The position numbers and the translations under genes were made by a program. DNA of 64,000 bases from a bacterium (GTDB lineage: Bacteria; UBP7; UBA6624). The DNA is taken from assembly GCA_002716355.1 (NCBI GenBank), contig PBAU01000011.1, positions 24,114 through 88,113 of the forward strand. The letters are read 5' to 3'. Positions 11,269-47,174 of the stretch are shown here, in pieces (position 1 is the first letter of the stretch; every line of letters begins with the position of its first letter). The notes under the pieces were generated by a model that was not told the origin of the DNA, did no database searches, and saw only the letters and a program-made list of their open reading frames with translations.

Positions 11269-11296
11269 TTGTCAATATTAGAATATTTTTTGTTAT
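11269..11296 (+). promoter_or_regulatory. Candidate promoter for trxA
   Basis: TTGTCA at 11269-11274 and TGTTAT at 11291-11296 are separated by 16 bases and match the sigma-70 consensus at five and four of six positions. The predicted transcript would start only a few bases before the strong AGGAGG ribosome site that precedes the trxA ATG. Such a short leader makes this a weak call in an AT-rich gap. Confidence 0.3.
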
Positions 11297-11314
11297 TGAT
11301 ACAAGGAGGTACAA

Positions 11315-11635
11315 ATGACAATCGAACTTAATGAGGATAATTTTTCAGATACTATAAACACAGGTATAACCTTAGTTGATTTTTGGGCGGAATGGTGTGG
11401 CCCATGCAAAGCAGCTGCCCCATATGTTGATAAACTTGCCGATCAGGTTGGCGATAACGCCAAGGTTGTGAAGGTTAATGTTGACGAAAGCCCTTCTATT
11501 GCTTCTCAGTTTGGGGTTATGAGTATTCCGACTTTCATTCTGTTTAAGGATGGAGAGGTTATCGAGAGAACTTCTGGCTTCACGCCAAATTTTATTGCTG
11601 AATGGACTGAAAAGATAGATTCAGCTCTTCTTTAA
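11315..11635 (+). CDS. trxA: Thioredoxin
   Basis: A 106-residue thioredoxin with the standard active site WAEWCGPCKAAAP, the conserved cis-proline in VMSIPTFILFKDGE, and the usual start at the strand preceding the first helix. It reduces protein disulfides in the cytoplasm. The length and fold are fully typical. A strong ribosome-binding site (AAGGAGGTAC) sits seven bases ahead of the ATG, which fixes the start. The mnmA start follows two bases after its stop, so the two are co-transcribed; the thioredoxin could serve the sulfur-relay step of MnmA, but this is inference from position. Confidence 0.97.
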   Translation: MTIELNEDNFSDTINTGITLVDFWAEWCGPCKAAAPYVDKLADQVGDNAKVVKVNVDESPSIASQFGVMSIPTFILFKDGEVIERTSGFTPNFIAEWTEKIDSALL

Positions 11636-11637
11636 TT

Positions 11638-20100: not shown

Positions 20101-20338
20101 ATAGGTATTGGAAATATTCCATATGGCCACCTTGGTAAGAGGATATTGCAACTGCATGAGGGTCCTCCTGAATGGCTGACATAACAACCTCTTCAACAGA
20201 TCTGTCATGTCCTAGATGTATAACTTCACATCCAAGCTCTTGCAAAAGTCTTCTAACCATATTAATTGCTGCATCATGTCCATCGAACAGGCTTGCCGCA
20301 GTGATGATCCTTTTTGGCTTGTTGTTGTTTTTCATCAT
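17156..20338 (-). CDS. icmF: Fused isobutyryl-CoA mutase IcmF
   Basis: A 1060-residue three-part enzyme. The N-terminal B12-binding domain has SLFDGHDAAIN, the IcmF form of the D-x-H motif. A MeaB-type G-domain from about residue 180 has GITGTGGSGKSSLIDEL (Walker A), VETAGIGQAD and VLNKYDH. The C-terminal half is the acyl-CoA mutase barrel, with DPTRMFAGEGPPEQTNKRFH, YGRSPEGRPDIYGKVGESG, SVSISGYHIAEAGANP and TSGRSLHAQEIQFNDIRTT. The fusion order is that of IcmF, which interconverts isobutyryl- and n-butyryl-CoA with adenosylcobalamin and uses GTP to guard the cofactor; related enzymes take pivalyl-CoA. Exact substrate preference needs active-site comparison. It lies downstream of meaB and a free B12-binding gene in one operon. 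Confidence 0.95.
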   Translation of the reverse strand: MMKNNNKPKRIITAASLFDGHDAAINMVRRLLQELGCEVIHLGHDRSVEEVVMSAIQEDPHAVAISSYQGGHMEYFQYLSKRLKEENLEHVKIFGGGGGVILPEEANELEKNGITKIFRPEDGASKGLIGMIQEVIDLCNINPEDLTVPKTNNHLSLSRKLTYVENNKKINFKESKKNPKIIGITGTGGSGKSSLIDELILRFSRDNPNQKIAILAADPTRARTGGALLGDRIRMNAIYGGNVFFRSLATRSRMALSSIIEKAIDAVRSEDFDLIFVETAGIGQADNPLEGIVDISIYVMTSEYGAPSQLEKIEMLDTADLVVLNKYDHRAGEDALRDVQKQVRRLKNQGHGDLDEQPVFATIASQFADPGVNELYEKIKILIGLNPEKESRKNKTIKPKKHVLIPGNRERYLAEISETVHSYKKNVIELETHAEKLQALSIMQNNDVPKNYSQFPNAKNGTLEWDYNRTLEKLGDIGLNALRMYDDLQKYNQSKMTYSIRGREINVTTHSESLSGTKISKISIPKYRSWADRIKWILLENTPGKFPFTQGVFEFRRSGEDPTRMFAGEGPPEQTNKRFHLLAESEPYNRLSTAFDSVTLYGRSPEGRPDIYGKVGESGVSIATVEDMGRLYKGFDLCDPATSVSMTINGPAPTILAFFLNTALNQQIKKFKKENSSKPNEEELREIKKMTFSSVRGTVQADILKEDQAQNTCIFSTEFSLKLMGDIQEWFVNNNVKNFYSVSISGYHIAEAGANPITQLALTLSNGFTYIEYYLSRGMSIDDFAKNLSFFFSCGLDPEYQVLGRVARRIWAIALKEKYGSNIRSQKLKYHIQTSGRSLHAQEIQFNDIRTTLQALMAYYDRCDSLHTNAYDEAICTPTEESVRRALAIQQIITKELGTAKCENMLQGSFFIEELTELVENAVLKEFESINRRGGVLGAMELGYQRSKIQEESLHYEHLKHSGELPVVGVNTFLGENTDPIIPQEITRSSNKDRDNCVKRVQEFENKNMKKSSEMLKKLQKVALDGGNIFEQLMETSNYASLGQITDALFKVGGKYRRNL

Positions 20339-21278: not shown

Positions 21279-21859
21279 TTTTTGATTGTTTTTAAAATTA
21301 CTATTGATATTAGCCATGGGATAGAAAGAAATATAGCAATTTGACTTGTGTTGAAGGTTGTTATAAGCCAAAAATAAAGACTTAAAACCCCTAGAATGCT
21401 TCCAAGAGTCGAAATTGCTAAAAGGATACCGGCATGCTCGCCTTTTTTTGCTTGTGCAGAAGGGCATAGTTCAACCATTGTTGGAAAAGCCGTACCCATT
21501 AATATTGCAGGAATGAAGAAGTTTAAAAAACTAATTAATAATGGTTCCCATTGTGTCGGGTCTTTTTCTAAAAATATGGAAGCGATAAAATTGCTAATTT
21601 CCGGAGAGAATATTACCAATATTGATATTGAAAGCCATATTAAAGAAGTAATTTTTTTTATGTTTTTTGTTGTATTTTTTGATGATATTTTTCCACCGAA
21701 AAAATAACCACATGTCATCCCGCCCAGGAATACTGAAATAGTTGATGCCCACAGTATGGGAGATTGTCCAAAATGTGGTTGCATCAATCTTGGTCCAAAC
21801 ACTTCAAATGCCAGTAAACCAAATCCAGTAAGAAATGTTAGGCAGTAATACTTATTCAT
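21275..21859 (-). CDS. Six-helix membrane protein, partner of spermidine-synthase-like protein
   Basis: A 194-residue membrane protein with about six hydrophobic segments. It starts YYCLTFLTGFGLLAFEVFGPRLMQPHFGQSP, the typical first helix and loop of the membrane domain of fused spermidine-synthase-like proteins (G-x-x-x-L-x-x-E-x-x-x-x-R-x-x-x-P-x-x-G). GGMTCGYFFGG and the PAILMGTAFPTMVELCP region (helix followed by a polar patch) also fit. In most genomes this half and the methyltransferase-like half are one polypeptide; here they are two reading frames joined by an ATGA overlap. It overlaps the upstream B12-domain gene by eight bases. The role is unknown. Confidence 0.75.
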   Translation of the reverse strand: MNKYYCLTFLTGFGLLAFEVFGPRLMQPHFGQSPILWASTISVFLGGMTCGYFFGGKISSKNTTKNIKKITSLIWLSISILVIFSPEISNFIASIFLEKDPTQWEPLLISFLNFFIPAILMGTAFPTMVELCPSAQAKKGEHAGILLAISTLGSILGVLSLYFWLITTFNTSQIAIFLSIPWLISIVILKTIKK

Positions 21860-22235
21860 TTATTATTTCTTCAATTTTTTTTACTATATCTTTCAAGGGG
21901 GTTCCTGGGTTGAAAACAGCTTTAATACCCATATTTTTAAGTGATTCAGATTCTTTTTTTGTAATAATTCCACCAAATGTTATAGGTTTGTTAACTTGCC
22001 TTTGTTTAAGTTCTTCTATAAGTATTGGTATCAATGCCATATGTGCACCAGAAAGTATTCCAACAGCTATGAGATCAACATCCTCTTCAGCAGACATGAT
22101 AGCAATTTCTTCTGGTGTTCTGTGGAGTCCACTGTAAATTGCCTCATGCCCAGCTTCTTTCAGCTCTCTTGCAACAAGAAGTGCACCTCTGTCATGTCCG
22201 TCAAGGCCAATTTTTGCAATTAGTATTTTAGCCAT
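21852..22235 (-). CDS. Free-standing cobalamin-binding domain protein (acyl-CoA mutase small/C-terminal type)
   Basis: A 127-residue protein consisting only of a B12-binding domain. AKIGLDGHDRGALLVARELK carries the D-x-H-x-x-G motif whose histidine ligates cobalt from below. AVGILSGAHMALIP and ITFGGIITKKE supply the S-x-L and G-G elements that hold the nucleotide tail. This is the C-terminal part of methylmalonyl-CoA mutase-type enzymes, encoded separately as in McmA2 or IcmB. No matching large subunit is in the window, and IcmF already has its own B12 domain, so this protein probably partners a mutase encoded elsewhere. Its start lies ten bases after the meaB stop. Confidence 0.92.
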   Translation of the reverse strand: MAKILIAKIGLDGHDRGALLVARELKEAGHEAIYSGLHRTPEEIAIMSAEEDVDLIAVGILSGAHMALIPILIEELKQRQVNKPITFGGIITKKESESLKNMGIKAVFNPGTPLKDIVKKIEEIINE

Positions 22236-22244
22236 TTTTAAATT

Positions 22245-23042
22245 CTAAATATCTATCTTGAAATCCAATGGATTTAGCCTCTTTTCTTTTTTTATTTTCT
22301 TTTCCAATTTTTCAAGGAATATAGAGGTGGCAAAATCTTTTGTTTCAGCGATATTTTTGTCCCGGTTGTTTTTTGTTTGAGATTTTTTTATTTTCTTTTC
22401 CAGTTTTTCAATATTTTTATTTGTTTTGGCCGATATCGCTAATACCTCTTTTTTTGTTATCGCTTCCATGATTGATTTTAGCCTTTCAGCACCCTCTCTA
22501 TCAGATTTGTTGATTACTATAAGGTCCGCCTCTTCAAGCAAGCCAGCTTTAACTGCCTGGTAAGAATCACCGCTTTCTGGGGACAAAACAACGATTAAAA
22601 AATCAGCTATACCCCTTAATTCTTGTGATGTTTGCCCAACTCCAACCGACTCAACAAAAGCTTCCTGAAAGTTTTCAGAATTGAAGAGGCGCAAAAAAGG
22701 CCAAATTGAAAATGATGTACCTCCATGGTGACCTCTAGAGGCGATAGATCTTACAAATGGTTTCTTGTTGTTATTTTTTGTTTTGAATCTAGCCCTGTCT
22801 GCAAGAACAGCACCTCCCGAAATTGAGCTAGAAGGGTCGATTAGAAGAAATGCTGTTTCTTTATTGCATTTTTCAACAAAGTAGTTCAGTATTGAGGATT
22901 TTCCAACACCAGGAGGGCCTGCAACAACAATTGTTTTTAAGCTCCAGTCAAATTTTAATAATTTTGCATAGAGCTCTTTCCACCCTTCTTTTTTATTTTC
23001 AAGAAGTGTTAAATTTCTTGCTATGTTCAATCTTTTTTCCAT
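22245..23042 (-). CDS. meaB: MeaB/ArgK-type G-protein chaperone
   Basis: A 265-residue P-loop GTPase of the MeaB family, which loads and protects adenosylcobalamin in acyl-CoA mutases. Seen are Walker A VAGPPGVGKSSILNYF, LLIDPSSSISGGAVLADRARF (the family's switch region), VESVGVGQTSQELRGIADF and the base-specificity motif VINKSDREGAERL. The usual length is about 330; the C-terminal dimerisation extension is reduced to a short lysine-rich tail. It is encoded just before the free B12-domain gene, which supports action on that second mutase, while IcmF has its own built-in G-domain. Confidence 0.9.
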   Translation of the reverse strand: MEKRLNIARNLTLLENKKEGWKELYAKLLKFDWSLKTIVVAGPPGVGKSSILNYFVEKCNKETAFLLIDPSSSISGGAVLADRARFKTKNNNKKPFVRSIASRGHHGGTSFSIWPFLRLFNSENFQEAFVESVGVGQTSQELRGIADFLIVVLSPESGDSYQAVKAGLLEEADLIVINKSDREGAERLKSIMEAITKKEVLAISAKTNKNIEKLEKKIKKSQTKNNRDKNIAETKDFATSIFLEKLEKKIKKEKRLNPLDFKIDI

Positions 23043-34327: not shown

Positions 34328-37300
34328 ATGATTTTTGGCTTTAAACAAAATCCTAAAAAAAAGATATTAGCTTTTTTTAAAAAAGGTAAAAGCGATAGCG
34401 CTATAGAGCACCTCGAAAAATCCTGGAGTGAGATAGGCGTTCAAGATCGAGTAGAGATATTAGATTCATGGACTTTAAAGAAATCAGATAATGAGATGCA
34501 GCAAAAATGGTTATCTTTTGTTGAGAAGCATGCTTCGGACCAAGGCCCTTTGGATGATCTGGAAAGTAAAATCCGCAAAAATGCTGATAATGATTATGTT
34601 TTTGATTATGAGTTATGGGTTAATTTAGCCAACCAGCATAAAAATGATTTTTTCTTGGTGCTTGCTACTGGAAATGAAATTTTTCCATATGGTGATTATT
34701 CTTCTTTTTTAAAAAATAAAATCGATCCATTATTTATTTTTTTTATGAGGAGAAGATTAGCTTCTGAGTTAAAAATTTGCAAAGAATTATTACCCTTTTT
34801 GAAACACCTTGTGAAAGGTGATAAAGATGATATGGTGAAAAATTTATATGTTGAATATTTATTCAAACATAAGATATGGGAACAAAAAAATATTTCACTT
34901 GTGCAAAATTATTTAGTTAAAAATTTTAAGAATACAGATATTTCAGACTGGGCATTCCAGAATCTAAAAGCCCCTCTTTCGGATAAGTGGTTCGATTTGT
35001 TGAAGCGGTCTTTCAAGAGTAAACCTACGTCTTCTAATAAAAAATTACTTGCATGGTGTTGTTTTGAAAAAGGTATATATTTTGAGCCTTTGGAGGAAGA
35101 GATTGCTAACATAGGTATGCAAAATAAAAATACTAGATTGAAAGCAGTTGACATATTGTTGAGGTCAAAAAAACCAACCCCTCAAACGGTTAAGCTTTTC
35201 TGCCTGTCTTCTTCTGAGTGTCCTTCAAATGAGTTAATTTTGATTTTTTTAATTCAGCATCTTGAAGATGAGAAGTTGTTACACACACTTGTTTCTGCAA
35301 GAAATATTAATGAGAATTTAATTTCAGAATTTTTTTCAAGATGGAAAAAATCAACTCCAAGTGATTTAAATCTTGTTGTTAGGGTTCTTCAGCAATCATT
35401 ATCGTTGGGTTTGAGCTTATCAAAAAATGAATTAAAAATATTCTCTTCTTTAAGAGATCAAAAGGTTCTTTTTTGGCTTGCATCACTTGGGTTTGTTTCT
35501 GAAAATTTTGAATTAGTACAGGATTTAATTGGACGTATGGATAAAAAAATAAAATCTTATTTTGAATACAAGATGAATCTTCATTTTTCAAACAAGAAAT
35601 ACGATTTCTTGAAAAATCATTTTGATTTCCCTTGGAGCCTTATGGACAAGGCTCAATATCTTGAAAGCATTTCAGAATTCACAAAAGCAAATGAGATATA
35701 CAAGGAGGCTTGCGGAACCAAACATTATTCAGGTATATTCGCGAAATTAAAAATGGTAGCTAATGGTGTTGAGGTTTTGACTGATTCTGATTTCAAAAAA
35801 ATGAAAAATATTTCAAGTTCAGACTTAGCTGAACTGTTTTTCTTGAATGGTTTGTTTTACGTGGACAAAGGTAACTGGCTGCAATGTGAAAACTTCTTCA
35901 AGAAAGCTTATGAGCAAAAAGAAGATAAACGTTATATAAGTTCTTTAATTGAAATTTATTACAGATGGTCATCGGAATTGATATTGGAAAAAAAATTATC
36001 CAAAGCACAAGCTATTATTGAAAAAGGCCTGTCTATCGGTGATGATCCAAGATTAGTGAAGAATTTGATTTTGACAAATCCTAAAGTCACATCATGGAAT
36101 CAAATAAAAAAAATAAAATTAAAAAATATTGAAGACGAATTGTTATCAGATTATTTCTGGATTGCCTGGCGTTCTGGAGATTATAAAAATGCTGATGCTG
36201 CCTTAAAGAGATGCATACCTTTAAGCAAATCTGAGACATTTATTAAAAGAATCGCTCGGTATTATTTAGAAATGCCAATTCCAAAAGATGACAGTTTGAA
36301 AGGTAAAATTTGGGAAAAATTACATGTTTTGAATCGTCCATGGCTTACTGCTGCTATAGCTGTATCTCAAGATGAAAAACCACCTTTTCCAAAAGAGGTA
36401 CCGTCTGGAATTGAAAAATTATTAACAGGTTGGAGTTTAATGCAGATTGGCCAATTAGAAAATGCACAATTTCATTTTTCTAAACTTTTAAATGGACCTA
36501 TAAAAAATCTTGGAACTGGCATTAAAAGAGCAAGGTCACATATTGTTTTAGGTTATTGCCTTTTGGCCTGTAGGGATCTTGAATCTGCGGAAGAGGCGTG
36601 GAGCCGAAGTGCTCATTTCGGTATTAGCAATTCCCTTGTTAGCACTTTAAAATTTGTGATTGAACTAGAAAAAGGGGTTAAGAAAGCTTTGGCTGGAAGA
36701 AACCCATTGAAAAATTATGTGAAAGCTTTAAATCATCCAATTACAAAAGATGCTGCCGAAAAAAATTTAGCCATTCATTTTACTTTTTCAGGAGATTTTT
36801 TAAATGCTGGTAAGTATTGGGACAGTCTTGTTGAGAACTTTTCTGAAAAAAAATCCCCAGAAGAAGAGGTTTGGCTTGATATAAGTATCCAGATGGCAAG
36901 CTATTGTCACAAAATTAAGGATGGGAAAGATATTAATTTGATAGAGATGGCAGCTTTGGAGGATGAGGTTGAAAACATAAAGAAACAACTTAAGAGTTAT
37001 AGAGATTTAGGAGTTGATCCAGGTGTTTCTGAAGATGACTTGGAAAGAGCTTATTTCCAGCGTATCAAAAATTTCACACCTGAAAAAAATCCAGAAGAAT
37101 TTCGAAGAATAGAAGAAGCAAGGCAGTTTATTGCAGATCCAGACTTGAGATTAAGGACTGAATTGTTCACTCAGTCTGGCGTAAAAAAGAATAAACTGCT
37201 TCAGTTTTTGTCTTTTTATGAATGTGATCCATTAGATTTTTTTGTTGATCTGGTTGAAAAACCTGATTTTCTTCCTGAATTAACCTTTTTCAAAAATTAT

Positions 37301-37399
37301 GATCTTGAACTGCCAGAAAGTAATGAAGCGATCATTAGAAATTCTTTTGCAGAATGCAGGAGAAATGAACCTTTTGAATCGGAGTCTAATTTCTTTTAA
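34328..37399 (+). CDS. Large helical-repeat protein with a C-terminal J-like domain lacking HPD
   Basis: A 1023-residue cytoplasmic-looking protein with no signal peptide. Most of it is helical with TPR-like units, such as LAELFFLNGLFYVDKGNWLQCENFFKKAYE and GWSLMQIGQLENAQFHFSKLL. Near residues 890-940 it has LGVDPGVSEDDLERAYFQRI then KNFTPEKNPEEFRRIEEARQ and FIADPDLR. This follows the J-domain layout (helix I-II, loop, N-P-x-x-F, helix III), except that the catalytic HPD is replaced by T-P-E. Such a domain cannot be expected to stimulate DnaK normally. I do not recognise the whole protein; a scaffold role is likely. The frame and length are intact. Confidence 0.65.
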   Translation: MIFGFKQNPKKKILAFFKKGKSDSAIEHLEKSWSEIGVQDRVEILDSWTLKKSDNEMQQKWLSFVEKHASDQGPLDDLESKIRKNADNDYVFDYELWVNLANQHKNDFFLVLATGNEIFPYGDYSSFLKNKIDPLFIFFMRRRLASELKICKELLPFLKHLVKGDKDDMVKNLYVEYLFKHKIWEQKNISLVQNYLVKNFKNTDISDWAFQNLKAPLSDKWFDLLKRSFKSKPTSSNKKLLAWCCFEKGIYFEPLEEEIANIGMQNKNTRLKAVDILLRSKKPTPQTVKLFCLSSSECPSNELILIFLIQHLEDEKLLHTLVSARNINENLISEFFSRWKKSTPSDLNLVVRVLQQSLSLGLSLSKNELKIFSSLRDQKVLFWLASLGFVSENFELVQDLIGRMDKKIKSYFEYKMNLHFSNKKYDFLKNHFDFPWSLMDKAQYLESISEFTKANEIYKEACGTKHYSGIFAKLKMVANGVEVLTDSDFKKMKNISSSDLAELFFLNGLFYVDKGNWLQCENFFKKAYEQKEDKRYISSLIEIYYRWSSELILEKKLSKAQAIIEKGLSIGDDPRLVKNLILTNPKVTSWNQIKKIKLKNIEDELLSDYFWIAWRSGDYKNADAALKRCIPLSKSETFIKRIARYYLEMPIPKDDSLKGKIWEKLHVLNRPWLTAAIAVSQDEKPPFPKEVPSGIEKLLTGWSLMQIGQLENAQFHFSKLLNGPIKNLGTGIKRARSHIVLGYCLLACRDLESAEEAWSRSAHFGISNSLVSTLKFVIELEKGVKKALAGRNPLKNYVKALNHPITKDAAEKNLAIHFTFSGDFLNAGKYWDSLVENFSEKKSPEEEVWLDISIQMASYCHKIKDGKDINLIEMAALEDEVENIKKQLKSYRDLGVDPGVSEDDLERAYFQRIKNFTPEKNPEEFRRIEEARQFIADPDLRLRTELFTQSGVKKNKLLQFLSFYECDPLDFFVDLVEKPDFLPELTFFKNYDLELPESNEAIIRNSFAECRRNEPFESESNFF

Positions 37400-37406: not shown

Positions 37407-37847
37407 ATGTCTGATGATTCTTTTTCTTGGAGTTGTTGTGGTTTTAAAGACGATTACCCTAAATCACTTTTCCCTATAGTTTTATCTTTTGGTATAGCAT
37501 TTTTTGTAACTTCAGTATATTTTAGTTTTTACGAGGCTTTTTTTTGGGGTTTTATAATGATTTTTTCTTGGATTAATTATTTTATTAAATTTGATTATCA
37601 GATCAACAAGAAGCATGTCAGAATAAATTTTTTCAACAATTCGGTAAAGAAAAATTTGAATAAATTTAAATCAGCACATTTTCATTTGAAAGGTGTTTAT
37701 TTATCCCCAACAGCAAAAAAAAGCTTCTATGGCGGCTTAAAGGGTTCATGGATATATTTACCTTCTGATGTTGAGAAAAGGAAAAAGATAATCGATATCG
37801 TTTCAAAAAAAATCCAAATAGTTAAAAGTCACGATCATATAAATTAG
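37407..37847 (+). CDS. Small two-helix membrane protein of unknown function
   Basis: A 146-residue protein with two adjacent hydrophobic segments (SLFPIVLSFGIAFFVTSVYF and EAFFWGFIMIFSWINYF) and a basic C-terminal domain (KKHVRINFFNNSVKKNLNKF and onwards). The N-terminus is short and has a Cys-Cys pair (WSCCGF). It starts at ATG 37407, seven bases after the large repeat protein, and sits before the MutL-like cluster. No family recognised; co-transcription is the only clue. Confidence 0.55.
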   Translation: MSDDSFSWSCCGFKDDYPKSLFPIVLSFGIAFFVTSVYFSFYEAFFWGFIMIFSWINYFIKFDYQINKKHVRINFFNNSVKKNLNKFKSAHFHLKGVYLSPTAKKSFYGGLKGSWIYLPSDVEKRKKIIDIVSKKIQIVKSHDHIN

Positions 37848-37865: not shown

Positions 37866-38153
37866 ATGTTTAGAAAGATTTTTTCTGGTGAAAGTTGGAA
37901 AGCTGAGAGTGATGAAGATTTTGCTTCAAACCTTGTAGATAACGGCCTAGGGGTTCCTTCAGTGTTTTTATTAGAGTTAGCAAAACCTTTGAACGTTTTG
38001 GCATCTTCGGCATTTACGGTTCTTTCACCAGTCGGACACTTGTTTTTCGATAGGGAAAAATGGGATGTTGTGCCGGATTTTTTTTCAGACAGGAAAAGAA
38101 TCGAAGATATGATAAATTCAATAGAAAAGGAATTAGCTGCTCATGAATCATAA
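37866..38153 (+). CDS. Small protein coupled to the MutL-like gene
   Basis: A 95-residue protein with the core VPSVFLLELAKPLNVLASSAF followed by SPVGHLFFDREKW and RKRIEDMINSIEKEL. The central part is mildly hydrophobic and would be an amphipathic or membrane-touching helix, and the C-terminus is a charged helix. The start is ATG 37866. The gene overlaps the MutL-like start by 11 bases, so translation is probably coupled. I cannot name the family. Its position at the head of the MutL/membrane-cassette run suggests it belongs to that system. Confidence 0.6.
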   Translation: MFRKIFSGESWKAESDEDFASNLVDNGLGVPSVFLLELAKPLNVLASSAFTVLSPVGHLFFDREKWDVVPDFFSDRKRIEDMINSIEKELAAHES

Positions 38154-39921
38154 AAATTTTATCGCTACTGATTGTGGCTCAACTACTACAAAGGCAATTT
38201 ACATCGAGAAAAAAAAGGATGGCTACAGGTTGGAAAAAAGAGGAGAGGCTCCTACCACCGTCGAAGCCCCTTTTGAGGATGTTACAGCAGGAGTGGTTAA
38301 TTCTGTAGAAGAGTTAGAGGAACTGTCAAAGAAAGCATTTTTATTGAAGGATGGCAAAGGCGTTATTAGGCCTAATGACGGAAAGAAAGGTGTCGATGCT
38401 TATGTTTCAACGTCATCTGCTGGTGGTGGCTTGCAGATGTTGGTAGCTGGAGTTGTGAAAGAAATGACTGCAGAGAGTGCGAATAGAGCTGCTTTGGGTG
38501 CTGGATCAATTGTGATGGATGCTCTTGCAATTAATGATGGTAGAAAAACATGGGAAAGAATTGAGCTAATTAGAAACTTAAGGCCAGACATGATTCTTCT
38601 TTCTGGAGGTACTGATGGTGGTGATGTTAATCATGTTGTTGAAATGGCAGAAGTGATTAAGGAAGCAAAACCAACATCAAGATTGGGTTCGGCTAAATTG
38701 CCAGTGATTTATGCTGGAAACATTGATGCAAGAAATACTGTTCAAGAAATATTAGGTGAAGTTTGTGATTTGTTTATCGTAGATAATCTTAGGCCAACTC
38801 TTGAATCTGAAAATCTTGGACCAGCAAGAGAGAAAATTCATGAGTTGTTTATGGAGCATGTCATGCAACAGGCTCCCGGATATCCAAAATTGATATCCTG
38901 GACTGACGCTCCAATTATGCCTACTCCAGGCGCAGTAGGTTCTTTAATAGAGCGAATTGCTGAAAAAGAAAAAATCCAGGTTGTAGGTGTTGATATAGGT
39001 GGTGCTACCACAGACATTTTCAGTGTTTTTTCTGACAAATTCAATCGAACTGTATCTGCCAATTTAGGTATGTCTTATTCCATTTCTCAAGTTATGGCTG
39101 AAGCTGGTTGGAAAAACGTTATGCGTTGGGTCCCTTTTGAAATGGATGAACAAGATTTGCGAAACAGAATTAAGAACAAAATGATAAGACCAACTACCAT
39201 CCCTCAAACGTTAGAGGAGTTGATTATTGAACAAGCATTAGCAAGAGAGGCTCTTTCTCTTTCTTTTGAACACCATAAATCTTTAGCTGTTGGTCTTAAA
39301 GGTGTTCAGCAACAGAGAACAATAGCAGATGCCTTTTCACAAAAATCAGGAGGAGAATCATTGATTAAAATGTCAGATCTTGATTTGCTTATAGGTTCAG
39401 GAGGTGTTTTGTCGCACGCTCCTAGAAGAGTTCAGTCAATGTCTATGCTGATCGATGCTTTTCAACCTGAGGGAATTACTGAACTGGCGGTAGATAGTAT
39501 TTTTATGATGCCTCATTTAGGAGTTCTTTCAACCATAAATGCTGATGCTGCTGTTGAGGTATTTGATAAGGATTGCTTAGTGAGGTTAGGCACATGTGTT
39601 GCTCCAAAAGGAGAAGCAAGAAAAGGGGAATCCATTTTAAAGGTTGAACTTGCTGATGGTAACTCTTTTGAGATGGGTTTTGGAGAGATAAAACTTATCG
39701 ATCTTGGGGTTGGTGAAAAATTAGAAGCAAAATTGTCTCCTGCAAAAAAGGTTGATTTAGGAGATGGCCCTGGTAAGGAAATGTCCGTCAGCTTAACCGG
39801 TGGGCAAGTCGGTGTTATTTTTGATACTAGAGGTAGACCTTTAACAATATCTACAAATGAGGAGGAAAGGATAAGAAGTTTGAAAACTTGGCATGAAAGT
39901 TTGAATCTTTATCCGGAATAG
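38143..39921 (+). CDS. MutL/GlmL-type ASKHA-fold ATPase homologue
   Basis: A 592-residue protein of the MutL (GlmL) family, the putative reactivating ATPase associated with glutamate mutase, not the DNA-repair MutL. The acetate/sugar kinase-Hsp70-actin fold is shown by phosphate-1 ATDCGSTTTKAIYI, phosphate-2 VVGVDIGGATTDIFSV and the adenosine motif LLIGSGGVLSHAP. VSTSSAGGGLQMLVAG, ILLSGGTDGGD and VIYAGNIDARNTVQE are family blocks. No glutamate mutase lies next to it; a barrel-sandwich protein and two membrane cassettes follow instead. That suggests its ATPase cycle drives or regulates a membrane complex, which is inference. It starts at ATG 38143, overlapping the preceding small gene. Confidence 0.85.
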   Translation: MNHKNFIATDCGSTTTKAIYIEKKKDGYRLEKRGEAPTTVEAPFEDVTAGVVNSVEELEELSKKAFLLKDGKGVIRPNDGKKGVDAYVSTSSAGGGLQMLVAGVVKEMTAESANRAALGAGSIVMDALAINDGRKTWERIELIRNLRPDMILLSGGTDGGDVNHVVEMAEVIKEAKPTSRLGSAKLPVIYAGNIDARNTVQEILGEVCDLFIVDNLRPTLESENLGPAREKIHELFMEHVMQQAPGYPKLISWTDAPIMPTPGAVGSLIERIAEKEKIQVVGVDIGGATTDIFSVFSDKFNRTVSANLGMSYSISQVMAEAGWKNVMRWVPFEMDEQDLRNRIKNKMIRPTTIPQTLEELIIEQALAREALSLSFEHHKSLAVGLKGVQQQRTIADAFSQKSGGESLIKMSDLDLLIGSGGVLSHAPRRVQSMSMLIDAFQPEGITELAVDSIFMMPHLGVLSTINADAAVEVFDKDCLVRLGTCVAPKGEARKGESILKVELADGNSFEMGFGEIKLIDLGVGEKLEAKLSPAKKVDLGDGPGKEMSVSLTGGQVGVIFDTRGRPLTISTNEEERIRSLKTWHESLNLYPE

Positions 39922-39925
39922 ATTT

Positions 39926-41044
39926 ATGGCACAAGCATTTACCCCAGGTTTAACTAGAGCAGCTGGTTTAAAAGTTATAAAAACAAGACGACTGCCTCTT
40001 TTAGGTGAAACTCTTTTCAAAGTTGGAGATAAAGTTTCAGCTACTGATATTGTTGCTAGAACAGATTTACCAGGACCTGTTTCAGTTTTAAAAATTTCTC
40101 ATAGGTTAGGTTGCCAACCAGGTGAATTAAAGGATTTCATGTCTGTAAAAGAAGGAGATGCCATTTCTAATGGTCAAGTTATTGCAGAGAGCAAAGGTTT
40201 TATGGGGTTTTTTAAATCGGAATTTAAATCTAACACTGATGGAATCATAGAAAGTATATCAAAAGTAAATGGTCAAGTTTATGTAAGAGGCACTCCTATT
40301 CCAGTTGAAATGGAAGCTTATATTGATGGAAAAATTATTGATGTTATGAAGGATGAAGGCGTAATGGTTGAAACTGTTGCGACAATGGTTCAAGGCATTT
40401 TTGGCGTGGGTGGAGAAACTGGAGGAAAGTTAATTTTTGGAGTTGATTCTCCATCTGATGTTTTAGCTCCGTCTGACTTGAAAGAAGATATGAAGGATTG
40501 TATTGTGGTTGCCGGTGCATGCTTGACACAGGAAACCATAATGAAAGCCAAATCTATTGGCATTAAAGGATTGGTGGGTGGAGCGCTTCATGATAAAGAT
40601 TTGAGATCTTTTTTGGGTTATGACATAGGGGTTGCTATTACTGGTAATGAAAATATAGGTATAACCTTGGTGGCAACTGAGGGTTTTGGAGAATTGAAAA
40701 TGGATTCCAATACATGGAGTTTGTTGAAGTCATGTGAAGGTAAAAGAGCAAGCATAAATGGTGCTACACAAATTAGAGCAGGTGTTTTAAGGCCTGAAAT
40801 AATCATCCCTACACCTGAAGAAAAATCAAAAGATTCTGATAGTGGTGCTGGATCATTAGAGATAGGTACTAAAATTGTTGTTATCAGAAACCCTTACTTT
40901 GGATTAACTGGCACTGTTTCAGAACTTATCGTTGAACCACAGAGGCTAGAATCAGAAGCTAAAGTAAGAGTTTTGAAAGTAAAATTAGAAAATGGAGATG
41001 AGGCTATTGTGCCGCGTGCTAATATAGAAAGACTAGCATCATGA
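39926..41044 (+). CDS. Barrel-sandwich/KOW-type soluble protein linking the ATPase to the membrane cassettes
   Basis: A 372-residue soluble protein. Residues about 10-150 hold two barrel-sandwich-hybrid-like repeats of the kind FKVGDKVSATDIVARTDLPG and VKEGDAISNGQVIAESKG, as in RnfC, lipoyl or biotinyl domains but without a modified lysine motif. A middle Rossmann-like part (CIVVAGACLTQETIMKAKSI, then IGIKGLVGGALHDKDL) follows. The last 60 residues resemble a KOW/SH3 barrel (GTKIVVIRNPYFGLTGTVSE and VKLENGDEAIVPRANIERL). It begins four bases after the MutL-like stop and overlaps gene A by four. The family function is unknown to me; the domain make-up suggests an adaptor. Confidence 0.7.
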   Translation: MAQAFTPGLTRAAGLKVIKTRRLPLLGETLFKVGDKVSATDIVARTDLPGPVSVLKISHRLGCQPGELKDFMSVKEGDAISNGQVIAESKGFMGFFKSEFKSNTDGIIESISKVNGQVYVRGTPIPVEMEAYIDGKIIDVMKDEGVMVETVATMVQGIFGVGGETGGKLIFGVDSPSDVLAPSDLKEDMKDCIVVAGACLTQETIMKAKSIGIKGLVGGALHDKDLRSFLGYDIGVAITGNENIGITLVATEGFGELKMDSNTWSLLKSCEGKRASINGATQIRAGVLRPEIIIPTPEEKSKDSDSGAGSLEIGTKIVVIRNPYFGLTGTVSELIVEPQRLESEAKVRVLKVKLENGDEAIVPRANIERLAS

Positions 41045-41841
41045 TTTTTAATTTTTTTATTTCTTCAGATGCTTTTTTCAAAGCCGATCATGAGGTAACA
41101 CTGATTGCTTGCCTTTTGTTCATGGGAGCTATACTTTACACTCTTTCTAAAGCCAGAAGAGGAGCTGATCTTTATATACGTTCAATTCCAGGTTTGGATG
41201 CTGTTAATGAAGCTATTGGAAGAGCTACCGAAATGGGTAAGCCGATACTCTATTGCCCTGGCTTGTCAAGCGCAGCTGACGTTGCAACCTTGGCAAGTTT
41301 AAACATATTAGGTAGGGTTGCTCAAAGGGTTGCAAATTATGAAAGTCGCTTGATAGTTCCGCATAGAGATCCTATTGTTATGACTGTAGCAAAAGAAACT
41401 TTGAAGGATGCTTATTTACAAGCTGGAAAACCTGAAATATTAAATGAAGAGGATAATTTTTTCATTACTGAAGATCAGTTTGGTTATACTGCTGCTGTTA
41501 ATGGAATAATGGTAAGAGAAAGACCAGCAACTGTATTTTTGCAAGGCATGTTTTTTGCTGAATCTTTATTGTTGGCTGAAACAGGAAATTCAATTGGTGC
41601 AATTCAAATTGCAGGAACTGATGCTGTGCATCAGTTGCCATTCTTTGTTGCTTCTTGTGATTACACGCTTATTGGAGAGGAGCTGTATGCCGCTGGAGCA
41701 TACTTATCAAAAGCTCCTGATTTAATGTCATCACTTAAAGCTGCTGACTTGATCAAAGGAATCTTATGGGTTTTGATAGTTATCGGTCTTGTCTTGACTT
41801 TTGTGGGCAACGCATCTATTTTTGAGGTATTTGGCAAATGA
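41041..41841 (+). CDS. Membrane cassette gene A (copy 1): two-TM protein with cytoplasmic domain
   Basis: A 266-residue protein with one TM at each end (about 17-36 and 240-258) and a 200-residue domain between. Basic KARRG directly after TM1 puts the domain in the cytoplasm. Its core blocks GLDAVNEAIGRATEMGK, TLASLNILGRVAQR, GNSIGAIQIAGTDAV and SCDYTLIGEELYAA are nearly identical in the second copy (44130-44939), which marks functional surfaces. The family is a domain of unknown function as far as I can tell. It starts with ATGA overlap to the barrel-sandwich gene and ends with ATGA overlap to gene B. Confidence 0.78.
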   Translation: MIFNFFISSDAFFKADHEVTLIACLLFMGAILYTLSKARRGADLYIRSIPGLDAVNEAIGRATEMGKPILYCPGLSSAADVATLASLNILGRVAQRVANYESRLIVPHRDPIVMTVAKETLKDAYLQAGKPEILNEEDNFFITEDQFGYTAAVNGIMVRERPATVFLQGMFFAESLLLAETGNSIGAIQIAGTDAVHQLPFFVASCDYTLIGEELYAAGAYLSKAPDLMSSLKAADLIKGILWVLIVIGLVLTFVGNASIFEVFGK

Positions 41842-42506
41842 AAACAAAACTTCCTGTAACCATTGCTTTTCTGACTGGTTTATTTATGGCTTTTGCTTAT
41901 TTTGTTGAAAGGGATAATGTTGCATGGGTAAGGATTCTTTACGAAGAGTTGAATCAGAACAACATTGTTCTTGCTGTGTTTGTTTTGTTTTTAGGGGTTG
42001 GTACACTTTTAATCCGTCATGCAAAAAAAATCAGAGATAAAAATTCTGATTCAATTTATTCTTGGGTTGTTATAGTGTCGACTCTTGCAGTTGCATACAT
42101 TGGTTTGTTTCAAACCACTGGAGAAAGCATTGGGGCAAATGAAAATTTTCAGTGGATATTTAATAATTTTCAGGTTCCTCTTTCTGCAACTATGTTTTCA
42201 CTTTTAGCATTTTTTGTTGCAAGTGCTGCCTACAGAGCTTTTAGAGCAAGAAACACAGAGGCAACTTTATTGCTGATTGCCGCAGCAATAGTGATGATAG
42301 GAAGGGTACCTATTGGATCGGTTATTTCCGACAGTTTGAGTTTAACTGGATCTTTTTCTTTGCCTGCAATTGCTGAATGGATTTTAGATATCCCAAATAC
42401 GGCTGCAAAGAGAGCTATAACTATTGGTATCGGATTAGGGATGACGGCTACTGCAATAAAGATTATTTTCGGTATAGAGAGAACTTATATGGGAAGTGGT
42501 AAATAA
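41838..42506 (+). CDS. Membrane cassette gene B (copy 1): polytopic membrane protein
   Basis: A 222-residue protein with about six hydrophobic segments. The blocks ATMFSLLAFFVASAAYRAFR, RARNTEATLLL, WILDIPN, and GLGMTATAIKIIFGIERTY are shared with the second copy at 44936-45580. A conserved basic motif AYRAFRAR lies on the cytoplasmic edge by the positive-inside rule. No known transporter motif is seen. The junction with gene C is TAATG. The function is unknown; the strong conservation inside the helices suggests packing against A, C or D. Confidence 0.75.
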   Translation: MKTKLPVTIAFLTGLFMAFAYFVERDNVAWVRILYEELNQNNIVLAVFVLFLGVGTLLIRHAKKIRDKNSDSIYSWVVIVSTLAVAYIGLFQTTGESIGANENFQWIFNNFQVPLSATMFSLLAFFVASAAYRAFRARNTEATLLLIAAAIVMIGRVPIGSVISDSLSLTGSFSLPAIAEWILDIPNTAAKRAITIGIGLGMTATAIKIIFGIERTYMGSGK

Positions 42507-43363
42507 TGAATATTTGGGATAAGTTGTCTTCAATTGATAGAAGGTGGATATTTCTTGCAATGGCCATTTTCGTTTCATGGCCAGTATTAAAACCCTTAGG
42601 CCTTCCAGTAACAACAACAAAAGAAGTTGAAAGTCTTTATAGCTTTATTGAGGAAATCGAAGATAAGAAACCAATAATTTTAGCTCTTGATTACGGTCCA
42701 TCTACTGCTCCTGAACTAACACCTATGGCAAAAGCTGTTATGAGGCATGCTGTAAGCAAAGGGATTCCTGTTGTGGGGGTAAGTTTAGCTCCAGATGCTC
42801 CAGGGGTTGCAAATGATATCTGGAAATGGGCGGAAGAAGAATTAGGCGCTATTCCGGGTGAGGATATTGCATACCTTGGATACAAAGCAGGAACAACAAA
42901 TGTTATCTTGCAGATGGGACAGGGTATATCTAAGGCTTTTCCAAAGGATTATTATGGCAACAACACAGATGATTTGGAAATCATGGAAGGTTTTGAAAGT
43001 TTAAAAGATGCCTCTCTTGTTCTCGGTCTTGAGGCAACTGCCATTATGGATTTATGGATTCAGTATGCTGGTGACCAAATGGGTGTTCCTGTTGCCGGCG
43101 GAATGACAGCGGTTTCTGCGCCTGAGGCTTATGTGTTTTATCAGTCAGGGCAAATAGTTGGTTTGATGGGAGGCATGAAAGGCGGAGCTGAATATGAACT
43201 CTTAGTTGGTGCACCTGGAAATGCTGTTCAGGGCATGGATGCTCAATCACTAGGACATATTGTTATTATTGTTTTTATCATTTTTGGAAATCTTGGTTTT
43301 TTCTTAGGTAAAAAAGGCCAAGACGTTTCCAGATTAAAGTCTTTAAGAGGTGATCAGAAATGA
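42506..43363 (+). CDS. Membrane cassette gene C (copy 1): periplasmic-domain protein with TM at each end
   Basis: A 285-residue protein with TM1 (WIFLAMAIFVSWPVL) after a basic start and TM2 (IVIIVFIIFGNLGFFLG) before a basic tail. Both ends should be cytoplasmic, with the roughly 220-residue middle periplasmic. The middle alternates strands and helices (PIILALDYGPSTAPELTPMAK, then GIPVVGVSLAPDAPG), like a Rossmann-type or flavodoxin-like domain. The second copy (45577-46437) is clearly homologous but more diverged in this domain than in the TMs. It overlaps gene B by one base and gene D by four. Confidence 0.75.
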   Translation: MNIWDKLSSIDRRWIFLAMAIFVSWPVLKPLGLPVTTTKEVESLYSFIEEIEDKKPIILALDYGPSTAPELTPMAKAVMRHAVSKGIPVVGVSLAPDAPGVANDIWKWAEEELGAIPGEDIAYLGYKAGTTNVILQMGQGISKAFPKDYYGNNTDDLEIMEGFESLKDASLVLGLEATAIMDLWIQYAGDQMGVPVAGGMTAVSAPEAYVFYQSGQIVGLMGGMKGGAEYELLVGAPGNAVQGMDAQSLGHIVIIVFIIFGNLGFFLGKKGQDVSRLKSLRGDQK

Positions 43364-44133
43364 TTTTGAATTTAATTGCACCTCTTGGGACTACAGAAGG
43401 TTTAGGTATATGGATTGCCGCTTTCTTGACTTTATGTATTTTTTCTTTCCTGTATAAAGACAATCCTTTTTATAAATTTGCCGAACATTTATTTGTTGGT
43501 GTCTCTAGTGGATATTACATTTCTATCTATTATTGGAACACATTGAAGCCAAACATGATTGACGAATTAGTGAAAGGCTTTAAGGCTTTAGGTCAGGGTA
43601 ATACGCAAAAAGCTTTTGGTCTTGATGAAAGTGGCGCTGTTATGGCTGAGCCTCATTTAAGAATGTTGATACCACTAATGCTGGGTATTTTTATATTGTT
43701 GATATTTATATCTAGAAAAAATGCTTGGTTATCAAGGATATCATTTGCTTGGTATATAGGTGTTGCAAGTGGAATAGCCATACCAACTGCTATGTCAACC
43801 AGGGTTCTCCTACAGGCTCAAGGCTCCATAAGAGATTTTTGTTCATATAATTCCGATTGTGCGACCTCTGCAGGTTTGGATCCTCAGGTTGCAACTACAG
43901 CACTATGGATCAATGCCTTTTTGCTTTTGATTGGAACATTGTCTGCTTTAGCTTATTTCTTCTTCAGCTTACCCTCCAAAGGAGCACTTAAAGTTATGAA
44001 TAAAGTCGGAATTTACTTTTTGATGATTTCTTTTGGAGCTTCATTTGGGTATACGGTTATGGCTCGTATAAGTCTTCTTATCGGCAGGCTGCAGTTTCTT
44101 TTTTATGAGTGGCTTGGTATTACTATTTCATGA
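43360..44133 (+). CDS. Membrane cassette gene D (copy 1): six-TM protein with periplasmic C-x5-C pair
   Basis: A 257-residue membrane protein with about six TMs. The first block GIWIAAFLTLCIFSFLYKDN and FYKFAEHLFVGVSSGY is strongly conserved in copy 2. By the positive-inside rule the loop between TM4 and TM5 is periplasmic; it holds cysteines at residues 161 and 167 (C-x5-C), a spacing also present in copy 2. The C-terminal stretch VMARISLLIGRLQFLFYEWL is conserved as well. Unknown family; start and end are ATGA overlaps. Confidence 0.75.
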   Translation: MILNLIAPLGTTEGLGIWIAAFLTLCIFSFLYKDNPFYKFAEHLFVGVSSGYYISIYYWNTLKPNMIDELVKGFKALGQGNTQKAFGLDESGAVMAEPHLRMLIPLMLGIFILLIFISRKNAWLSRISFAWYIGVASGIAIPTAMSTRVLLQAQGSIRDFCSYNSDCATSAGLDPQVATTALWINAFLLLIGTLSALAYFFFSLPSKGALKVMNKVGIYFLMISFGASFGYTVMARISLLIGRLQFLFYEWLGITIS

Positions 44134-44939
44134 TTTTTAATTTTTTAAATTTAATGTTTCAAATTCAAATAAAAGAGGGAACAGGTCCTGTTTTTTTTGT
44201 TTTGGTTCTTTTTGTCGCAGCTCTTTTTTTCTTTTTAGATAAAGCAAGAAAAGGTGCAACTTTTAAGATTAGAAAGATTGCTGGTCTTGATGCTGTAAAT
44301 GAGGCTATAGGAAGGGCTACAGAAATGGGCAAATCTATCCTTTACACAACAGGATTAGAAACTGCAAGTCATATAGCGACCATTGCTTCATTGACCATAT
44401 TGTCTAGGGTTGCCAAAAGAGCAGCAAGATATGGAACTAGGTTACAGGTTCCTTCTTTTGATCCGATTGTTATGAGTTTAAGTCAAGAGATAGTACGAGA
44501 ATCTTATCTTGAGGAAGGAATGGTTGACAGCTTTAAAGGCGATGACATTTTTTATTTAACTCAGGAGCAATTTGCATACACTGCAGCTGTTGAAGGTGTT
44601 TTGGTAAGAGAAAAACCTGCAACTGTTTTTTTAATGGGTTATTTTTATGCAGAATCTTTACTATTGGCTGAAACTGGCAATTCGATTGGGGCGATTCAAA
44701 TTGCTGGAACAGATGCTGTTACACAGCTTCCATTTTTTATCGTTTCCTGTGATTACACATTGATTGGTGAGGAGCTTTATGCAGCAAGTGCTTACCTTTC
44801 AGAGGATTCAAATATTATTTCATCTTTAAAGGCCCAAGATTTTGGAAAAGCTTTATTATGGATATTTTTGCTTTTGGGAAGTATTGTAACTTTTGCTGGT
44901 TCTACTAAATTCCTTTCATTATTAGGAGCTTCTACTTGA
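44130..44939 (+). CDS. Membrane cassette gene A' (copy 2)
   Basis: Paralogue of the 41041-41841 gene, 269 residues. The frame is open to a GTG at 44109, but ATG 44130 makes the ATGA overlap with gene D and gives MIFNF, the same first five residues as copy 1. TM1 follows, then basic DKARKGATFKIRK, then the blocks GLDAVNEAIGRATEMGK and GNSIGAIQIAGTDAV and SCDYTLIGEELYAA. It differs from copy 1 mostly in the TMs and in the LQVPSFDPIVMSLSQEIVRE region. Function unknown; co-presence of both copies suggests a hetero-oligomer. Confidence 0.78.
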   Translation: MIFNFLNLMFQIQIKEGTGPVFFVLVLFVAALFFFLDKARKGATFKIRKIAGLDAVNEAIGRATEMGKSILYTTGLETASHIATIASLTILSRVAKRAARYGTRLQVPSFDPIVMSLSQEIVRESYLEEGMVDSFKGDDIFYLTQEQFAYTAAVEGVLVREKPATVFLMGYFYAESLLLAETGNSIGAIQIAGTDAVTQLPFFIVSCDYTLIGEELYAASAYLSEDSNIISSLKAQDFGKALLWIFLLLGSIVTFAGSTKFLSLLGAST

Positions 44940-45580
44940 ACAACAGAGGACCTCTTTTGATTGCATTTGTTTGCGGTATGTTGATGATGGCTGAATCTTT
45001 CCTTGACTATTCTTGGTTGAATAGTTTTGCTGAATGGGTTCAGAAATACTACATCATTATTGCTGCGTTTGCAATTGTTTTAGGTGTTGCGAGCCTATTT
45101 AAGCTTCACTTGGCAAAACTTAAAAGGAAAGAGGACGGCTGGAGATATTCTCTTGTGGTATTTTTTGGCTTTTTTGCAATGATAATCACTGGTTTTTTCA
45201 TGAATGATGATGGTCTTGTTGGAACTAAGCATCCATGGAACGCTTGGTTGTATAACAATGTTCAGCTTCCATTGGGAGCGACAATGTTTTCGCTTTTGGC
45301 ATTTTTTATTGCAAGTGCAGCCTATAGGGCTTTCAGAGCAAGGTCTTTAGAAGCAACTTTACTGCTTGTGGCAGCATGTTTGGTTATGCTTGGTCAGGTG
45401 CCAATACTTACTGGCGGTATTTTTGATAATCTTCCTGAGATAAAACAATGGATTTTAGATATTCCAAATATGGCCAGCAAAAGAGCAATCATGATTGGTG
45501 TTGGTTTAGGGATGATGTCAACAGCATTAAAGATTATTTTCGGTATTGAAAAAACATATCTAGGTGGAAGTGAAGAATGA
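44936..45580 (+). CDS. Membrane cassette gene B' (copy 2)
   Basis: Paralogue of the 41838-42506 gene, 214 residues, starting at TTG 44936 within a TTGA overlap. The first half diverges, but from LPLGATMFSLLAFF onward it follows copy 1 closely, including AYRAFRARSLEATLLL, WILDIPNMASKRAI and ALKIIFGIEKTYLG. Six TMs with short loops. It ends in acidic residues (GGSEE) rather than the Gly-Ser-Gly-Lys of copy 1. Confidence 0.75.
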   Translation: MNNRGPLLIAFVCGMLMMAESFLDYSWLNSFAEWVQKYYIIIAAFAIVLGVASLFKLHLAKLKRKEDGWRYSLVVFFGFFAMIITGFFMNDDGLVGTKHPWNAWLYNNVQLPLGATMFSLLAFFIASAAYRAFRARSLEATLLLVAACLVMLGQVPILTGGIFDNLPEIKQWILDIPNMASKRAIMIGVGLGMMSTALKIIFGIEKTYLGGSEE

Positions 45581-46437
45581 ACATTTGGGACAGACTGCAA
45601 TCGATAGACAGGCGTTGGATTTTTTTAGTTATGTTTATTGTTATCATCATTCCATTGATGAATCCACAAAGCTTGGATATAAATGTTAGTGAGCCAACAA
45701 GAAAAGCTTTTGAGAGAGTCGAAAAGATTCCTAGTGATAGCAATGTTTTAATATCTTGGGATTTTGATCCTGGAAGTCAGGCAGAATTATTGCCAACAGC
45801 TAAAGCAATGTTGCATCAATTGTTCAAAAAAGATGTGAATATTGTTGTTATTACCTTATTGCCCGCTGCTCCAACCTTGGCTGATACAACTTTGAATGAA
45901 ATCTCATCTATTTACAAGAAAGAAGAAGGGGTCGATTGGGTTAATCTTGGTTTTAAGCCAGGATTGGATATTGTTGTTAAAAGCATTGGAACAGATATTT
46001 ATGAAATTTTTCCAGCTGATGACAAAGGAAAAAGGGTTGAAAGTATACCTTTGATGAAAGATATAAGAAATTACGATGATTTTGATTTAGTTATTGATTT
46101 AAGCGCTGGCTCAAGTGTTGACTTTTTTGTCGAACAGGCTCATGGCAGATACGGTGTTGATCTTGTTGCTGCAGCAACTGGGGTTATGATTGGTGATTTT
46201 TACCCTTATTTAGAAGCAAACCAGCTTCAAGGATTAGTAGGAGCTCTTGTAGGTGCTGCTGAATACGAGAAGCTAATGGAGATTTCTTATGGTCTTGAAC
46301 CTGATAAAGCAACTGCTGGAATGCAGGCTCAAGCAAAAGCTCACATTGCCATAATAATTTTTATAATCTTGGGCAATATTGGTTTTTTTGCGAAAAGAAA
46401 TAAAACTTCACCAAAATTGGAGAGTTTAAGTAAATGA
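45577..46437 (+). CDS. Membrane cassette gene C' (copy 2)
   Basis: Paralogue of the 42506-43363 gene, 286 residues. The start MNIWDRLQSIDRRWIFL is nearly identical to copy 1, and the end (AHIAIIIFIILGNIGFFAKR) matches. The predicted periplasmic domain is diverged, keeping SQAELLPTAKAM, the strand VVITLLPAAP and LQGLVGALVGAAEYEKLM. This pattern (fixed membrane parts, drifting outer domain) would fit two different ligands or a heterodimer interface. Overlaps both neighbours by four bases. Confidence 0.75.
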   Translation: MNIWDRLQSIDRRWIFLVMFIVIIIPLMNPQSLDINVSEPTRKAFERVEKIPSDSNVLISWDFDPGSQAELLPTAKAMLHQLFKKDVNIVVITLLPAAPTLADTTLNEISSIYKKEEGVDWVNLGFKPGLDIVVKSIGTDIYEIFPADDKGKRVESIPLMKDIRNYDDFDLVIDLSAGSSVDFFVEQAHGRYGVDLVAAATGVMIGDFYPYLEANQLQGLVGALVGAAEYEKLMEISYGLEPDKATAGMQAQAKAHIAIIIFIILGNIGFFAKRNKTSPKLESLSK

Positions 46438-47174
46438 TTTTTAATTTACTAATTGCAAACCCTTTAAGCCCTGATGGTATTGGGGTTTGGATTGCTGCCA
46501 TACTGACAATAGCAATTTTTTCTTTTCTATACAAGGATAACCCTTTATTTAAATTTGCTGAACACCTTTATGTTGGAATTGGTGCTGGTTACATTGTTGT
46601 TGTAGCTTGGCACAATGATATTGCAACAAATGTTATTCAGCCTTTTAAAGATGGATTGACAGCTATTCAAAACAATGACCCTAGTGGTTGGGTAAATATG
46701 GTGAATCCAATCATGGCATGTGTTATTGGAAGTTTTCTTTTCTTTCCTGTTGTAGCTCCAAAATTTAGATGGCTTACAAAATATGCTTTTGCTTTTATAC
46801 TAGGAACCTTTTCAGGTATCAAGGTAGCACCTGTTATTAAAGAGAAATTAATTACCCAACTTTCATCTACGCTTGATCGTATTTGTGCAGTTTCGAATGA
46901 GTGTGCAGCACAGGTTGCGTCAATAAGCTACACGCCAGAAACATCAGCTATGTTTAATGCTGCTTTCGTTCTTTTGGGTGTTTTGTGTGGTTTGGTTTAT
47001 TTTTTCTTTTCTTTAGAGCATAAAGGCGGAACTAAGATTGTAGCCAAAACAGGCATACTTATCTTGATGGTTGGGTTTGGTGCAAGTTTTGGTTTAACAG
47101 TCATGGGACGTGTTTCTCTATTGATTGATAGAATTCAATTCCTTTTAACTGATTGGTTAGGCCTTATCGCTTAA
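46434..47174 (+). CDS. Membrane cassette gene D' (copy 2)
   Basis: Paralogue of the 43360-44133 gene, 246 residues. GVWIAAILTIAIFSFLYKDN and LFKFAEHLYVGIGAGY match copy 1. The C-x5-C pair is conserved at residues 151 and 157 (RICAVSNECAAQ) in the same predicted periplasmic loop, although the surrounding loop sequence has changed. The C-terminus keeps VMGRVSLLIDRIQFLLTDWL. It ends the run; phoH begins 14 bases later. Confidence 0.75.
   Translation: MIFNLLIANPLSPDGIGVWIAAILTIAIFSFLYKDNPLFKFAEHLYVGIGAGYIVVVAWHNDIATNVIQPFKDGLTAIQNNDPSGWVNMVNPIMACVIGSFLFFPVVAPKFRWLTKYAFAFILGTFSGIKVAPVIKEKLITQLSSTLDRICAVSNECAAQVASISYTPETSAMFNAAFVLLGVLCGLVYFFFSLEHKGGTKIVAKTGILILMVGFGASFGLTVMGRVSLLIDRIQFLLTDWLGLIA

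Follow-up and report, generated by a model that had tools for sequence, protein, structure and literature searches.

The window analysed here, a 64,000-nucleotide stretch of contig PBAU01000011.1 (positions 24,114 to 88,113; assembly GCA_002716355.1) from a bacterium of the lineage UBP7, carries a gene system that is real, widespread and undescribed. Its order is P-S-M-K-(A-B-C-D)-(A'-B'-C'-D'), with all genes on the + strand and their ends overlapping or nearly abutting, and it combines two small proteins (P and S), a MutL/GlmL-like ATPase (M), its partner K and a four-gene membrane cassette in two tandem copies. Our preferred reading, to which we give about even chances, is that A-B-C-D is a new multi-subunit transporter for amino-acid- or peptide-type solutes and that M and K form its accessory ATPase. 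No description of the gene set was found in the literature searched, where searches for MutL are dominated by mismatch-repair papers, and no mention was found there of DUF6754, the family to which A belongs, or of the relative NIOZ-UU106. An established complex matching A-D was not found either, in line with an earlier note on this DNA that had recognised the gene set but knew of no function for it.

That note listed eleven open reading frames starting at S, all of which we found where it had placed them; the list was not complete, as P, a conserved gene upstream of S, also belongs to the cluster. Within the cassettes the junctions are overlaps of 1 or 4 bases, as had been described, whereas S and M overlap by 11 bases and M and K are separated by a gap of 4 bases. 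The two cassettes are 57% (A), 49% (B), 33% (C) and 39% (D) identical, so the tandem repeat reported earlier is a real, old duplication and not an assembly artefact. Nor is the arrangement due to chance, since the same gene order is found again in many unrelated genomes. Profile searches of A loci, of which a scan with the A alignment (one genome per species) gave 57, recover the order S-M-K-A-B-C-D in about a dozen phyla, including Planctomycetota, Zixiibacteriota, Nitrospirota, Methylomirabilota and Elusimicrobiota. In Nitrospirota locus L010 (5430-6179) and its relatives, Tll0287-like proteins (PF11845) lie between K and A.

The association of M and K with the cassette, on which the earlier grouping depended, is strong and that grouping stands. 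Of 100 Nitrospirota genomes, 15 have A, and exactly these 15 have K; among 149 Bacillota genomes, 10 have both, 2 have A only and 1 has K only (Fisher p 7e-13). M is found in 19 of 27 genomes chosen for having A, and the eight without it are seven genomes of the Binatota lineage and one other. The sample from the phylum of genome G017 held a single A-positive genome and added little. K is absent from the same seven Binatota-lineage genomes, which retain S-A-B-C-D with S directly before A, and this assigns S to the membrane unit, of which M-K is a strongly associated partner that the unit can do without. In Bacillota, there are M-K pairs located apart from the cassettes, and pairs and cassettes differ in number. 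Given these two observations, the earlier proposal that the ATPase activity of M is the engine or signal source of the complex is not supported in the form in which it was made. One record, L040 (CAMBFS010000002.1), is titled Klebsiella pneumoniae; its A groups with a Proteobacteria-labelled metagenome-assembled genome and with Binatota, its neighbours match those of Binatota loci, and it is almost certainly a mislabelled metagenome-assembled genome.

Duplication of the cassette is not confined to the window. In trees of A and of D, the window's two copies and those of its relative stand next to each other, and the copies from Edwardsiibacteriota, Elusimicrobiota, Planctomycetota and Zixiibacteriota branch elsewhere, which argues that the A-D block was doubled independently several times in several phyla; the C tree does not follow this pattern. 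Expansion goes much further in Bacillota, where a 2.3-Mb genome holds 12 full-length and 2 truncated A genes and a second genome gives 10 matches. These copies are scattered, each within an A-B-C-D unit. A decayed second cassette, reduced to short D and A fragments, is seen at about 12234-13326 of locus L190 (Bacillota genome G027).

The Bacillota cassettes often lie close to genes of peptide, amide and amino-acid catabolism. A creatininase gene starts 17 bases after D, and a peptidase M3 gene and a gene for an IclR-type regulator lie 49 and 45 bases before A. Peptidase and amidase families near the cassettes comprise M20, M3, M14, S9, C26, TldD, Amidohydro_3 (D-aminoacylase type), amidase and nitrilase, and other neighbours are TDH with KBL (Kbl/BioF-family), indolepyruvate ferredoxin oxidoreductase and glycine reductase component C. 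Beyond Bacillota, S-M-K or M-K runs on from glycine-cleavage genes in Fermentibacterota and Eiseniibacteriota, and in two Planctomycetota the gene after D encodes a protein of the oligopeptide-binding type. Families of peptide, amide and amino-acid catabolism account for about 30 of the 124 proteins encoded no more than two genes away, versus 8 of 109 at a greater distance (p 6e-4), a count that covers the 25 commonest Pfam families only and is not fully independent, several Bacillota contexts coming from related genomes. Numerous paralogues of a membrane cassette, spread over catabolic clusters, form a transporter-like pattern, and it is from this expansion and these neighbourhoods that we infer transport; its direction, the class of substrate, the division of labour among the subunits and any coupling to ATP are likewise inferences.

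The proteins themselves are compatible with a membrane complex of several parts. A and A' are members of PF20539 (DUF6754), with E 2.5e-112 and 374.6 bits for A and E 2.2e-108 and 361.7 bits for A' against a gathering cut-off of 27; for B, C and D no family scores above its curated cut-off, and D' has no Pfam match. Hydropathy and charge bias predict the domain of A inside, that of C outside, and B and D polytopic, the same topology that the earlier note had assigned. AlphaFold models of C and A (pLDDT, the predicted local distance difference test, 94 and 84) suggest for both the same alternation of strands and helices, Rossmann-like in topology, with two flanking membrane helices. The modelled soluble domains align over their full length to Rossmann-like domains (Z 9-11, root-mean-square deviation about 3-4 A, 115-148 residues), with RCK and CODH epsilon among the matches of both and, additionally for A, Sir2 and transhydrogenase domain III; such matches indicate a fold class only, and we read no function from them. 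Profile-profile comparison detected no sequence homology between A and C or between B and D, so for A and C we claim the same topology and not common descent. Conservation differs between them. More than a dozen polar residues of A are 98-100% conserved among 112 proteins, including R47, R61, E64, Q146, R159, E174, E180, Q198, D207, E213, E214, D236 and K239; C keeps fewer, and within the window pair C is the most diverged subunit and A the least. This pattern would fit a common function on the inner side of the membrane and a variable one on the outer side.

M and K are unusually well conserved, with mean column identities of 72% and 62%. M matches PF13941 (MutL) with E 6e-130 and 434 bits (gathering cut-off 27) over positions 2-450 of 450, bearing out its earlier identification as a MutL/GlmL homologue. 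Its scores against the NCBIfam models GlmL (231.8 versus an equivalog cut-off of 475) and Or-4 (217.8 versus 600) are both below the cut-off, and it is about 115 residues longer at the C-terminus. It is 58-75% identical to its relatives across phyla, among which the motifs phosphate-1 (DCGSTTTK), phosphate-2 (VDIGGATTD) and SGG are invariant or nearly so. The description of K as a barrel-sandwich/KOW protein also holds, through a weak Biotin_lipoyl match (E 4e-5), an RnfC_N match (E 0.0045) and a KOW-like C-terminal stretch with weak SPT5/NusG matches. Searches of PDB sequences with profiles of A, C and M gave nothing usable, and with that of K only KOW-like fragments. Lipoylation of K was suggested by the barrel-sandwich match together with neighbouring lipA and gcvH genes and was rejected because the hairpin of its lipoyl-like part has no conserved lysine for attachment, the residue at that position varying in an alignment of 27 rows. 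In Eiseniibacteriota and Fermentibacterota (L118-L121; genomes G025 and G008), M and K are fused in one open reading frame of about 940-1010 aa; the same genomes also hold separate M-K pairs. Locus L114 of Bacillota genome G027 (1648-12460) has two tandem M-K pairs without A-D, preceded by a P-like gene and lying downstream of a pyridoxal phosphate-dependent enzyme, a C26 peptidase and an S58 aminopeptidase.

The two small proteins recur as well. An iterated profile places P homologues immediately before S or M-K at ten more loci from several phyla, those in unrelated lineages including L042, L059, L131, L127, L129, L130, L114 and L188; with the window's P alone as query, L006 (4e-14), L131 (4e-7) and L042 (2e-5) are recovered. 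P has no Pfam match. The S family, which could be aligned from 34 loci, has no Pfam or NCBIfam family above cut-off and precedes M where it does not adjoin A.

If the preferred reading is correct, A-B-C-D would be an inner-membrane transporter built as a hetero-oligomer, and its likeliest task would be to take up solutes of amino-acid, peptide or amide type. B and D would form the path through the membrane, the more variable extracytoplasmic Rossmann-like domain of C would meet the solute, and the highly conserved cytoplasmic domain of A might gate the path or couple energy to it by way of a ligand that all paralogues share. P and S may be assembly partners, and M with its constant partner K may act as a shared, dispensable accessory that chaperones, reactivates or energises the complex. 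The duplication in the window would then yield two forms of the unit whose C subunits have diverged. A stronger form of the proposal, in which Rossmann-like domains on opposite faces (A in, C out) surround two polytopic subunits and an ASKHA ATPase with a barrel-sandwich partner drives or resets this new class of transporter in place of an ABC-type (ATP-binding cassette) or ion-coupled motor, we consider unlikely.

Besides the limits of the near/far count given above, several points weigh against transport. For A-D no known transporter fold came up, the structure models being those of A and C. The majority of flanking genes are separated from the cassettes by more than 100 bases or lie on the opposite strand, and membership of an operon is clear for some only. 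The neighbours in Nitrospirota, in Methylomirabilota and in the window are housekeeping genes that indicate no substrate; beside the single-copy cluster of Methylomirabilota these are presumably gap-pgk-tpiA-secG, and elsewhere what we take to be S6/L9 ribosomal genes. Finally, M-K or K is absent from Binatota and from two Bacillota genomes, which means that a cycle run on ATP by M cannot hold in general; M may supply ATP drive, though not universally.

The housekeeping neighbours of single-copy clusters, which are seen in many Gram-negative phyla, and the unusual conservation of M and K would also suit a general envelope or membrane-homeostasis complex run by M-K, for the assembly of membrane proteins, for quality control or for the handling of lipids; its paralogues would then have been recruited at a later stage in Bacillota. 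We regard this as doubtful, as a general function of that kind sits poorly with so patchy a spread (15 of 100 Nitrospirota and 12 of 149 Bacillota genomes) and with an expansion to a dozen copies, many of them beside catabolic genes. Less probable again is a transmembrane sensor in which C reads a periplasmic ligand, B and D relay the signal, and A with M-K reports it on the inner side, where it would control the catabolism of amino acids or peptides. The presence of a Rossmann-like domain on either side of the membrane, the ligand-sensing RCK domains among the closest folds and the regulators adjoining some cassettes, which we take to be RpiR-, IclR-, TetR- and MarR-like, would all be in keeping with sensing, yet the cluster has no conserved output domain (kinase, cyclase or DNA-binding), four subunits including two polytopic ones exceed what a sensor needs, and the flanking regulators come from many unrelated families.

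The remaining alternatives start from M. In Fermentibacterota and Eiseniibacteriota (L128, L129, L130), S-M-K or M-K continues a gcvT-gcvH-gcvPA-gcvPB series on the same strand, and in Nitrospirota lipA precedes S-M-K (L010, L023, L031). Since known members of the MutL family accompany B12 mutases, M-K might be a GlmL-like chaperone of a glycine-cleavage, lipoate or other amino-acid enzyme, tied to A-D through co-regulation only, and both the Binatota cassettes without M-K and the Bacillota pairs apart from cassettes would agree with this. We nevertheless think it improbable: the identical distribution of K and A in Nitrospirota is far too tight for incidental co-regulation, and S, elsewhere directly upstream of M, directly precedes A-D in Binatota.

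The earlier note was right that no mutase adjoins M, and the host genome does encode B12-dependent mutases elsewhere. Within the window, about 15-20 kb upstream of M, we read the gene at 17156-20338 as an IcmF-like fused acyl-CoA mutase, the one at 21852-22235 as a small B12-binding subunit and the one at 22245-23042 as a MeaB-like GTPase; the gene for a mutase large subunit is on another contig. That M, as a PF13941 protein, reactivates one of these distant mutases is very improbable and the weakest of the alternatives, as those mutases appear to have G-protein chaperones of their own (fused in IcmF; MeaB-like), no glutamate mutase E subunit (PF06368) scores above cut-off in the host genome (86.6% complete), and M is below the GlmL and Or-4 cut-offs and has its genomic links with K and A instead of with a mutase.

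The cluster is flanked in the window by genes that are presumably gidB/lpxB-like and phoH/ybeY. Directly upstream of P lies a gene for a 1023-aa TPR-rich protein with a C-terminal DnaJ-like stretch (34328-37399), whose DnaJ match falls slightly below cut-off. No Rfam RNA or tRNA was found in the window, a plasmid search was empty, and PADLOC defence models gave no match for S, M, K or A-D at E 0.01.

Table 1. Genes of the cluster, with positions counted from the first base of the window (TM, transmembrane helix).
Gene	Position	Strand	Description
P	37407..37847	+	146-aa small membrane protein; a pair of hydrophobic helices followed by a beta-rich tail
S	37866..38153	+	small protein, 95 aa, without predicted membrane helix
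M	38143..39921	+	MutL/GlmL-like ASKHA ATPase, long form, 592 aa
K	39926..41044	+	372 aa; barrel-sandwich (biotinyl/lipoyl-like) and C-terminal KOW-like parts
A	41041..41841	+	DUF6754, 266 aa; predicted TM, cytoplasmic Rossmann-like domain, TM
B	41838..42506	+	predicted polytopic membrane protein, about 6 TM, 222 aa
C	42506..43363	+	285 aa; predicted TM, periplasmic Rossmann-like domain, TM
D	43360..44133	+	predicted polytopic membrane protein, at least 5 TM, 257 aa
A'	44130..44939	+	second DUF6754 copy; best start ATG 44130, frame opens at GTG 44109
B'	44936..45580	+	second copy of B
C'	45577..46437	+	second copy of C
D'	46434..47174	+	second copy of D

Of the eight protein families in the set, seven are without known function, yet the set is kept together across about a dozen phyla that include many uncultured lineages. 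If A-B-C-D is a transporter, it would be of a new class and would explain uptake of nitrogen compounds by some amino-acid-using Bacillota, and the MutL/GlmL ATPase family would gain a role outside B12 enzymes. The scattered cassettes of Bacillota make the idea of transport directly testable, one cassette at a time.

Several known entities touch parts of the system. A and A' are members of PF20539 by score, an entry that covers a single protein of unknown function and not the P-S-M-K-A-B-C-D system. The models of A and C share a common fold class with RCK/TrkA-N, CODH epsilon and DHS-like Rossmann domains at a sequence identity of about 10%, and no canonical dinucleotide motif is seen in either protein. 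A likely genuine Or-4-type copy, beside genes that we take to be OraS/OraE-like, is found separately in a Bacillota genome (L117). With GlmL/MutL of glutamate mutase operons and Or-4 of ornithine aminomutase operons (PF13941, NF040745, NF040744), M shares the MutL domain and intact ASKHA nucleotide motifs; unlike them it is longer, falls below the equivalog cut-offs, has no adjacent mutase and is paired with K. MutL has been termed a chaperone for glutamate mutase reactivation (PMC4682846). As a whole the cassette can be compared with Dpp/Opp and other multi-subunit solute transporters. It differs from these in that it has no solute-binding-protein match and no ABC ATPase, no ABC_tran match being found in S, M, K or either copy of A-D, and in that its ATPase is of the ASKHA and not the P-loop kind and is dispensable. 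It resembles them in its paralogous cassettes scattered among peptide and amino-acid catabolic genes and in its two polytopic subunits with an extracytoplasmic domain, and A-B-C-D would work like such transporters without being a member of their families.

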